Below are positions 4,793 through 7,032 of a stretch of DNA of 32,987 bases, one piece after another; within the stretch, counting starts at the first letter, position 1; each line of letters begins with the position of its first letter. The notes under the pieces are model-generated. The model was not told the DNA's origin, made no database searches, and saw only the letters and a program-made list of their open reading frames with translations. Position numbers and translations under genes: made by a program. This stretch comes from an archaeon (GTDB lineage: Archaea; Asgardarchaeota; Hermodarchaeia; Hermodarchaeales; Hermodarchaeaceae). The stretch is taken from positions 1 to 32,987 of the forward strand of contig JABXGU010000370.1 of the NCBI GenBank assembly GCA_016550415.1, read 5' to 3'.

Positions 4793-5170
4793 TTGACACA
4801 GCGCAGATTACTTGAAGAACGCTATGAACAGGGCATTGAACTCCTTTTAGAGATATCAGAGGATGGCGTCCCAATCGTAGTTGAGGGAATAAAGGATGTG
4901 GCAACACTACGACACATCGGACTCAGTGGACCAATCATTACACTTGTTGGACAAAGCATTGTTGCACTAGCAGATAAATTAGCAGACTTTGACCGCCTTT
5001 TGATTCTTTTTGACTTTGATAGACAAGGTAAGCGTCTAACCAAGAAATTAACTGAACAATTACAAGGCCGAGGAATAATCATAATGGAAGATATCCGCCA
5101 AACCTTGCAACATGCATTTTCTTGGCATACACGAGTAATTGAAGGATTGAAAAAAGACGTACCTCAGTAG
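4793..5170 (+). CDS. small Toprim-domain protein (RNase M5/primase-like, UPF0292-type)
   Basis: A single Toprim fold of 125 aa. The catalytic glutamate motif is VVEGIKDVATL, followed by the acidic pair in LFDFDRQGK, the metal-binding residues shared by primases, topoisomerases and RNase M5. Archaea carry such stand-alone Toprim proteins; the substrate is not established. The TTG start is supported by a strong GGAGG at 4781-4785, seven bases upstream. It lies 162 nt upstream of dnaG, which has its own Toprim domain, on the same strand. Possible roles are RNA cleavage or nucleotidyl chemistry, but this is inference from the fold. Confidence 0.85.
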   Translation: MTQRRLLEERYEQGIELLLEISEDGVPIVVEGIKDVATLRHIGLSGPIITLVGQSIVALADKLADFDRLLILFDFDRQGKRLTKKLTEQLQGRGIIIMEDIRQTLQHAFSWHTRVIEGLKKDVPQ

Positions 5171-5332
5171 CCACAAGATTTTAATTATGTTCGCTCAGTA
5201 CTTCTTTGAATCAAAATTACCTAGTATCAAGTTTACACATTCATTAAACAATGAAAAAGAACTGTGGCGCAATTACAATGAGATGCGCCACTCAAACGTC
5301 ATAATTCATTAAAATTACTTAGGTGTATTATC

Positions 5333-6656
5333 ATGGTATCAAATAAGGATGATACTGGAACTACAAAATATTGTATAAGAGGAAAAATCGAAATCGATGG
5401 AGTTGTAGAAACACCAGATGTGGTTGGCGCTCTCTTTGGTCAAACGGAGGGCCTACACTTCATGTAGATGACATGAAGGGGCAATCGGTGAAGATTTAGA
5501 TCTTAGAGAATTACAACTATCTGGACGAATTGGTCGAATAAAGGTTGAGCTGAAATCTGAAGGAGGCAAGTCTCGCGGAACAATCAATATCCCATGCAGT
5601 CTTGACCGTGTCGAAACAGCTATCCTTGCAGCCACCTTGGAAACTGTAGATCGTGTTGGACCCTGTGCAGCAAAAATTAGCTTAGAGAAAGTCGAGGATG
5701 TTCGTGAAGAAAAACGACGCCGAATTATTGAGCGCGCAATAGGACTAGTCCGTGACTGGGAAGGCGATGTCTCCCCTGATTCTCAAGAGGTCACAGACAA
5801 AGTTCTGCGTGAATCCCGTACAGCGGAAATCATAAAATTTGGCCCTGATGGTCTCCCTGCTGGTCCAGGAATTGACAAAACGGAGTCCATAATCATTGTG
5901 GAAGGCAGAGCAGACGTCTTGGCTTTACTACGAACTGGAATAGATAATGTCATTGCTGTTGAGGGTACAAGTATTCCAAAATCCATCATTGAACTCGCTA
6001 AAAACAAGACAGTCACTGCATTTCTTGATGGAGATCGTGGTGGCGATTTAATATTAAGAGAACTCGAACAAGTTACAGAAGTCGACTTTATCGCACGAGC
6101 TCCACCAGGGCGTGAAGTAGAGGAACTCACACAGAAGGAAATATCCAAGGCATTACGAAGCAAAATACCATCATCACAAGTAAGTAGGAGAGAAAAACGA
6201 AAAGGACCAAGAAGCACCGCAAAAATTCCGTCAAAAGCAAAAAGACCAAGTCGACGTGCGTCCTCACAGAAAAGTACAAGGGCAAGGCAGACTTCCCCAC
6301 CGGCAAAGGCACGTAAACCCACGCAAACAAAACCAAAGATTGAAAGACCAGTCGAGAGTAGGCACGCCCTAATTCCTGCTCCAGTGCTTAAGTCAGCCCA
6401 AAAAATCCAACAGACGATGATGGCTAGGATTCTAGATGAAGACTTTAAGCAGTTGAAGGAAACTCACGTTGGTGAAGTGACTACAGATTTACAGACCATC
6501 GAGAAAGCAAAAGTTCTCCTTTTAGATGGAGTAGTAACACAACGACTTGTCGATATCGCTGAAGACCGCGGGATAGAACTAATCGTTGGTGCACGTATTG
6601 GCAACATTGTAAAAAGACCAGTGAAGATGAAAATTCACACCTTTAATGAACTATAA
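5333..6656 (+). CDS. dnaG: archaeal DnaG primase-like exosome protein, gene interrupted by a 28-nt intron
   Basis: In archaea DnaG associates with the RNA exosome and has primase activity in vitro. Read as join(5333..5456, 5485..6656) it encodes 431 aa. The start ATG has AGGTG at 5321-5325. The N-terminal DnaG domain includes [12 protein letters not shown] and, after the junction, [18 protein letters not shown]. The Toprim domain shows [15 protein letters not shown] and [12 protein letters not shown] basic, low-complexity linker (about 190 residues in) leads to the conserved C-terminal domain ending in [13 protein letters not shown]. In the genomic sequence exon 1 runs into TAG at 5465-5467 and the rest is in another frame. 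Removing 5457-5484 restores the family sequence EGLLGEDLDL exactly. If there is no splicing, the gene would be broken, but the remainder is fully conserved. Confidence 0.9.
5457..5484 (+). other. predicted BHB (archaeal) mRNA intron in dnaG
   Basis: The inner helix is CTTCATGT (5458-5465) with ACATGAAG (5471-5478), a perfect 8-bp stem with loop AGATG. The central helix is GCCT (5451-5454) with GGGC (5479-5482), 4 bp including one G-U. The bulges are ACA (5455-5457) and AAT (5483-5485). This is the canonical bulge-helix-bulge layout. Cutting after the second base of each bulge removes 28 nt and joins CTA-C to TC-GGT, giving Leu-Leu-Gly as in other DnaG proteins. The outer exon helix is weak (one G-C pair). 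A frame stop TAG lies in the intron. Confidence 0.82.
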
Positions 6657-6686
6657 AGAAATCACACACAAATGGTCAGGCAGTAA

Positions 6687-6694
6687 GCTTAAAT
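6687..6694 (+). promoter_or_regulatory. TATA-like box ahead of the membrane protein/atpD pair
   Basis: GCTTAAAT lies about 55 nt ahead of the GTG at 6748, in the 91-nt gap after dnaG. It fits an archaeal box A with a short 5' leader. Position-based inference. Confidence 0.4.
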
Positions 6695-6747
6695 AGCGAA
6701 CACCCGCAGTTTCGAGCCGACTGCATAAACATTGTGAGTGTGCTCTT

Positions 6748-7032
6748 GTGTCCCAAGAAAATATGAAAATTGTTCGAACCCTTCAACTAATTGGATTCTT
6801 CTTCGCAATGGGAGCTGTGCTAACAGTCCTCATTAACGTCATTTTACCATTTGATTGGGATCTAATCGCATCAATTTTCTTTCTATCCTATTTACTCATT
6901 TGCGGCCTTTCATTTGCTGTAGCAGGAATCATAATAGAACATCCAGACCTAACCCGGAAATACACACTTGAATGGCTACTTGCAACAGTAGTTATTCTAA
7001 TCTGGGTGATATGCGTATACGCTTTGCTTTAG
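6748..7032 (+). CDS. small three-helix membrane protein of unknown function
   Basis: A 94-aa protein with three predicted membrane helices (about residues 11-34, 38-62 and 72-93) and a short charged N-terminus. I recognise no family. It starts at GTG 6748 and ends 10 nt before atpD, so the two are likely cotranscribed. Because AtpD is a stalk subunit of the A-type ATP synthase, a link to that membrane complex is possible, but only by neighbourhood. Confidence 0.75.
   Translation: MSQENMKIVRTLQLIGFFFAMGAVLTVLINVILPFDWDLIASIFFLSYLLICGLSFAVAGIIIEHPDLTRKYTLEWLLATVVILIWVICVYALL

Follow-up and report, generated by a model that had tools for sequence, protein, structure and literature searches.

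In the window, i.e. the whole stretch of 32,987 nt of DNA that was analysed, the dnaG locus occupies positions 5333-6656 and its reading frame is interrupted close to the 5′-end. The locus was divided into the following parts:

5333..5456, + strand: dnaG exon 1, comprising by translation 41 codons and the first base of a Leu codon
5457..5484, + strand: predicted dnaG intron, 28 nt, phase 1, with an in-frame TAG inside
5485..6656, + strand: dnaG exon 2, ending at the stop codon TAA, with a match to the NCBIfam DnaG model NF003108.1 (E 7.3e-109) on 5637-6653

The frame starting at the ATG at 5333 ends at the TAG at 5465, while the frame of exon 2 is shut upstream by the TGA at 5469; the two frames do not overlap and therefore cannot be joined by an ordinary frameshift. 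On translation, removal of the 28 nt gave an archaeal DnaG of 431 aa, and with the cuts placed behind base 2 of both ACA and AAT the joined frame read GLLGEDLDL, a sequence conserved in DnaG. The junction is unique, as the joined DNA differs under every shift of both cuts by up to 8 nt. The coordinates and bases given in the original prediction were correct, and its claim that removal of exactly 28 nt restores the conserved DnaG sequence was borne out by this translation.

The Rfam scan of window positions 5000-7000 with E-values up to 1 returned no match to a group I or group II intron, and the insert of just 28 nt does not hold the ribozyme core of such self-splicing introns. The cbf5 intron, which lies at the catalytic Asp codon of cbf5, is likewise a different element, the host gene here being dnaG. 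A gene for an RNA 2′,3′-cyclic phosphodiesterase-like protein, an RNA-end-processing enzyme, is located on the same contig (window 23034-23621).

Structure and conservation of the dnaG insert

The predicted RNA structure around the insert is composed of the following elements:

5451..5454, + strand: 5′ strand GCCU of the central helix, in exon 1; pairs formed in all 9 aligned sequences
5455..5457, + strand: 5′ bulge ACA, predicted cut after 5456
5458..5478, + strand: inner hairpin of 8 bp with a 5-nt loop; three inner pairs changed on both sides
5479..5482, + strand: 3′ strand GGGC of the central helix, in the intron, pairing with 5451-5454 and including one G-U pair
5483..5485, + strand: 3′ cleavage site AAU, predicted cut after 5484; an internal loop in the fold, not a strict bulge

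The central helix of 4 bp and the cuts after the second base that define a BHB motif are present, with 4/4 pairs in the window. In the minimum-energy fold the inner hairpin of 8 bp, the central helix of 4 bp and the bulge on the 5′ side were kept, the 3′ site formed a 2x2 internal loop (GG/AA), and beyond this loop the outer helix was reduced to two pairs, G5447-C5486 and A5448-U5485. The strict hBHBh′ form, which calls for an outer helix and two bulges of 3 nt, is thus absent, and due to the 2x2 loop at the 3′ site and the 2-bp outer helix the insert belongs to the relaxed BHB class only. The motif had been proposed to be canonical; the 5′ bulge, the central helix, the 8-bp inner hairpin and the 5-nt loop were found as proposed, but the AAT bulge on the 3′ side was not, and a proper outer helix was lacking, so that as modelled the motif is a relaxed BHB and 'canonical' is too strong a word. 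The fold of the region had a z-score of −3.9 against shuffles, and when the letters of the intron were shuffled with the exons fixed, 1 of 200,000 shuffled introns reached the same structure at the junction.

In a DnaG tree, built with a quick method and carrying long-branch warnings elsewhere in the tree, the window was placed in a clade of 14 rows with Hermodarchaeota-titled sequences (support 100), where the remaining 13 form its sister group (support 87). The insert was present in both Hermodarchaeota loci (L001, L002) among the 80 loci returned by a genome-contig search, and dnaG was in two pieces at the same site in 8/8 class genomes examined, with intron lengths of 28 nt in five of them, 29 nt in G010 and G012 and 31 nt in G011. 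Together with the window, the intron was found in 9/9 clade sequences, with lengths out of phase and both exons open, and one change on the tree is needed to account for it. It is preceded by the hexamer GCCTAC in eight of the nine sequences and by GTCTAC in G007. In the last 33 codons of exon 1, 433 synonymous versus 90 non-synonymous codon differences were counted over all 36 pairs of the nine sequences; the window differed from G001, G002 and G007 by synonymous codons only (11, 15 and 16, respectively); against G011, 12 of the codon differences were synonymous and 4 non-synonymous. The original prediction had held that the gene is not decaying and had proposed to look for the element in relatives; the recurrence of the insert at the same site throughout the class genomes and the mostly synonymous change in both exons are in agreement with this. 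Of the closest database proteins, P0001-P0042, all 42 either have their start within exon 2 or open with intron sequence that was misread.

In the alignment of the nine sequences, 94.8% of the structure cells were paired, compared with 37.0-51.1% when the partners were slid, and three inner-stem pairs had changes on both sides, i.e. compensatory changes. Among 500 shuffles, the observed values were reached by 2 for the percentage paired, by 5 for the covariation score, by 35 for the pairs changed on both sides and by 470 for further pair types. According to these counts, support for the pairing is good, and the signal of compensatory change is modest. The inner stem contains one or two mismatches in G007, G009, G010 and G012, and for both G010 and G012 the structure was matched by 9 of 30,000 shuffled introns in each case.

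Further candidate introns in dnaG, EF-1alpha and uS3

Screening of 195 genomes of the phylum revealed that dnaG is broken 13 nt upstream of the Hermodarchaeal site in 21 further genomes, between the Gln and the next residue of FGQ(T/L)EG. A model of the upstream-site introns, run over 227 Asgard genomes, added G205, G212, G216, G089 and G222 (at least 26 in total); the break in G089 had been absent from the first screen, so that this count may be incomplete. The 20 upstream-site introns that were extracted have lengths of 29-43 nt, all 1 or 2 modulo 3, and a central helix with 4/4 pairs in 18/20 and 3/4 pairs in 2/20. When both dnaG sites are taken together, all four central pairs were formed in 27 of 29 introns and three of four in the other two, with fixed cut geometry. 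The inner stems at the upstream site are weaker, with unbroken runs of 1-7 pairs, and when three of these introns were folded one had a z-score of only −1.3 and another favoured a different pairing. For 12 introns of both dnaG types, shuffles matched the structure in 0 to 44 of 30,000 cases (1 of 200,000 for the window).

On the tree, 17 of the 20 upstream-site dnaG genes fell into one clade, where they are intermixed with intron-less relatives and where the neighbouring database entries bear names such as Lokiarchaeota and Promethearchaeota. Those of G016 and G056 adjoin Jordarchaeaceae and Freyarchaeum names, and that of G020 was unplaced. The upstream-site label requires 7 changes on the whole tree, 4 of which are forced by starred branches. 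Two dnaG copies, one without and one with the intron, were observed in G142 (G142:C40:2559-2969 and G142:C91:4308-4741), possibly due to a mixed bin. Rejected candidates were a second dnaG piece in G105, which is a contig-end fragment and not an intron break, and the R2 hits L258 (G202), L260 (G092) and L262 (G205), whose frames read through and which were attributed to chance.

A model of the Hermodarchaeal dnaG intron (R1) was also run over the 227 genomes. It matched the eight dnaG introns and EF-1alpha of G011 (E 3.4e-6); two weaker matches, in G156 and G175, lie in frames that read through and were regarded as chance. The following candidate introns were found in EF-1alpha:

G011:C10:74371-75723 (L207), − strand: EF-1alpha with two BHB introns, the first near-identical to dnaG introns of relatives
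L293 (G212): intron of 30 nt beside the DAPGHxDFIKNMITG motif
L295 (G099) and L296 (G078): introns of 30 nt at the same site, beside the DAPGHxDFIKNMITG motif
L303 (G031): intron of 35 nt beside the DAPGHxDFIKNMITG motif
L294 (G053): intron of 33 nt inside the P-loop GKS

The first intron of G011 EF-1alpha is 29 nt long and lies between ...GCCTAC and GTAATGGAT, and its removal gives FAYVMDRL. It is identical to the dnaG intron of G002 at 27/29 positions, compared with 26/31 for the dnaG intron of G011 itself, and this closeness was reached by 0 of 20,000 random introns generated under the same BHB constraints. The 27/29 identity and the same preceding hexamer GCCTAC point to mobility, and the intron appears to have been copied between genes. 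The close relative G010 (92% identical to G011) has an empty EF-1alpha site, GCCTACGTCATGGAC, and is also read through at the second site, where G011 carries an intron of 31 nt (KN^MITG). EF-1alpha was free of stops over 429-431 residues in six of the seven other class genomes; G012 gave a weak match only. In total, EF-1alpha contains at least seven BHB introns in six genomes and at six sites. All seven candidates have 4/4 central pairs, unbroken inner runs of 5-10 bp and a protein-compatible junction, where these scores are the best of the compatible junctions. A lone in-frame TAA without insert in G213 and breaks with overlapping ends in G140, which suggested small frame errors, were not counted.

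In uS3, at least nine introns were found in five Loki-like genomes (L347-L351), one or two in each and at two shared sites. At site 1 (K^GGKRI) 4/4 central pairs were formed in 4/4 genomes and the inner stems have just 4-7 of 9 pairs; at site 2 (LE^MPQIEV) the inner stems have 8-9 of 9 pairs and the central helix only 2-3 of 4 pairs in 5/5 genomes. The intron-less uS3 of G214 reads LEMPQIEV, identical to the predicted join at site 2. uS3 also gave two matches in G051, G058 and G086.

A 26-nt frame-breaking insertion in a MoxR-type ATPase gene of G011 (L205, G011:C10 about 39560-39570) was by eye without a BHB and was not counted. Additionally, an ab initio BHB scan was performed on six of eight assembled contigs (393 of 424 kb). 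The dnaG intron of G008 was ranked first and that of the window joint second, those of G011 and G009 were not among the matches listed, and EF-1alpha was missed because its middle exon is shorter than the limit used. With 14 candidates in the true geometry compared with 10, 7 and 8 in shifted geometries, the scan was uninformative. Overall, on these sequence comparisons the dnaG intron belongs to a wider set of BHB introns of about 30 nt that interrupt essential genes of Asgard archaea, and at least one of these introns has apparently moved between genes.

Splicing machinery and interpretation

The search with PF01974 returned two EndA genes in seven of the eight class genomes and one in G001, and RtcB was found in 8/8. 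For the EndA alpha subunit of G002 (186 aa) the closest solved structure was the Aeropyrum pernix alpha chain 3p1z_B (E 1.8e-46). The regions around the catalytic His and Lys are aligned between the two, and a K-P-K loop in G002 takes the place of Aeropyrum K44-P45-R46; the beta subunit (198 aa) is without the catalytic His. In the excerpts available of PMC6379350 and PMC12397907, the broad specificity of the enzymes of Crenarchaeota is ascribed to this loop. A survey of this loop, for which 39 loci were given, yielded 23 rows: 15 readable alpha rows, two alpha rows cut at the loop (L083, L167), one empty row (L187), two beta rows (L087, L088) and three wrong frames (L085, L086, L089). The K-P-[KR] loop was present in 15/15 of the alpha rows readable there, including those of intron-less species, and the enzyme type is therefore wider in distribution than the introns. 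In the Thorarchaeota-titled genomes G004 (L085) and G003 (L086) a single EndA match was obtained per genome, located in a longer frame (346 and 252 aa, respectively); most other genomes listed have two short EndA genes.

A pair of database proteins bears on splicing itself. P0042, encoded on a contig of 74,437 nt, has its start past the intron. P0043, encoded on a contig of 1,524 nt, is continuous across the predicted junction; the two agree at 285 of 286 residues, after which the end of P0043 diverges as if by a frame error. Judged from the two sequences, the pair hints at a sequenced spliced transcript, for which metatranscriptome cDNA would be the likeliest source and an intron-less allele the alternative. 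With a 151-aa query for further joined Hermodarchaeal DnaG proteins the top identity was 68%, so that none among the best 120 of 673 is a close relative. With a spliced DnaG query of the Loki type, no spliced/unspliced pair as close as P0042/P0043 was found among the best 120 listed of 8000 candidates scored.

The presence in 9/9 clade sequences, the exact cut geometry, the covariation, the out-of-phase lengths, and EndA and RtcB in relatives together argue that, with high probability, the 28 nt in the dnaG mRNA constitute an archaeal intron of the BHB type. The original prediction of such an intron thus stands as the best reading, with the amendment that the motif is relaxed and that the case is not isolated, given the second dnaG site, EF-1alpha and uS3. 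In the dnaG pre-mRNA, GCCU at the end of exon 1 would pair with GGGC at the end of the intron, adjoining the 8-bp hairpin. A two-subunit (alpha-beta)2 EndA would cut behind nucleotides 5456 and 5484, the second base at either site, RtcB would join the exons to CTAC/TCGGT and thereby allow synthesis of full-length DnaG, and the excised 28-nt RNA would probably be circularised. Gene structure, conservation and covariation were observed directly, and EndA and RtcB genes in related genomes only; cleavage, subunit assembly and ligation are inferred.

The stable hairpin would also suit a programmed ribosomal frameshift or translational bypass, in which the 28 nt are kept in the mRNA and the ribosome shifts or hops over it, and in some relatives the exon-2 frame is indeed open through the intron and was translated by gene callers (e.g. 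P0004, P0005, P0007-P0017). In the window, however, the TAG at 5465 precedes the TGA at 5469 and leaves the frames without overlap, and if the ribosome hopped from CTA onto the codon preceding GGT, the second conserved Leu of GLLGE would be lost. As the lengths of 28, 29 and 31 nt are out of phase and exon-intron pairing comes with a fixed cut geometry, such recoding is considered very improbable. Slightly less credit still is given to a permanently split dnaG, with a functional short peptide from exon 1, an equally functional C-terminal DnaG that has its own start, and the insert as a spacer: database gene models do start inside exon 2 (e.g. P0001-P0003, P0006), but this arrangement has no need for exon-intron pairing, an exact cut geometry or a frame-compatible junction, and the joined form is seen in P0043. 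Stops and a shifted frame in one contig would by themselves be compatible with a pseudogene or an assembly error. Such damage is hardly conceivable for a break that recurs at one site in every class genome examined, is accompanied by mostly synonymous change in both exons and leaves its trace in all of P0001-P0042.

The BHB introns as a group would have spread by reverse splicing at GCCTAC-like sites. The balance is even for the broader proposition that Asgard archaea harbour dispersed, mobile, protein-free BHB introns of about 30 nt in essential genes (dnaG, EF-1alpha, uS3 and probably more), which would insert in codons of highly conserved motifs, find their sites by pairing between the intron 3′ end and the exon, and spread by splicing reversal and return to DNA.

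Provided that the introns are spliced, EndA/RtcB splicing is a requirement for coding genes in several Asgard lineages. Among database entries, the DnaG models from the Hermodarchaeal clade are truncated or misread, and the same may hold for EF-1alpha and uS3 models of the genomes affected; EF-1alpha and ribosomal proteins are common phylogenetic markers. Moreover, intron gain in archaeal protein genes is now testable, with the G011 EF-1alpha intron absent from its close relative G010 and a near-copy in dnaG of other relatives. If the introns are indeed a mobile family, the proliferation of mRNA introns would have a counterpart in archaea, within the lineage that stands nearest to eukaryotes.

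Comparison with known archaeal introns

Among titles and abstracts of the open-access PMC literature, none reporting introns in Asgard protein genes or in dnaG was found. In the excerpts available of PMC7714728, cbf5 is named in 2020 as the only other reported BHB intron in archaeal mRNA, and in those of PMC2738675 introns in other protein-coding genes are mentioned as predicted and unconfirmed (refs 39 and 50, with titles on rudivirus SIRV1 and Sulfolobus genomes). The accessible part of PMC2738675 describes the intron in cbf5 pre-mRNA of Sulfolobales and Desulfurococcales as BHB-like, 16-44 bp in length (Table 1), mostly unconventional in motif, cut between bulge residues 2 and 3, gained and lost in particular lineages and linked to hetero-oligomeric EndA, and reports EndA action on it. 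As far as described there, the Asgard introns are alike in being short BHB-like introns in a protein gene, with the same predicted cut position, a mostly unconventional motif, lineage-specific gain and loss and a probable link to hetero-oligomeric EndA. Unlike cbf5, with one gene and one site, they belong to another superphylum, occur at two sites in dnaG, six in EF-1alpha and two in uS3, and include one intron sequence common to two genes.

For HVO_1309 of Haloferax, the excerpts of PMC7714728 describe a BHB element in the 5′-UTR and processing of the mRNA by EndA. An mRNA would be the EndA substrate in dnaG as well; in contrast to the untranslated region of HVO_1309 and an enzyme that needs a strict motif there, the dnaG coding frame depends on the removal. 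According to the accessible part of PMC4090602, the tRNA introns of Thermoproteales spread by intron transposition (Fujishima 2010, as described there), which the BHB requirement allowed and which was proposed to occur at the DNA level. Near-identical BHB introns at different places, from which copying is inferred, are common to both cases as far as these excerpts go, whereas in Thermoproteales the hosts are tRNA genes and in Asgard archaea the copying would have taken place between two protein-coding genes.
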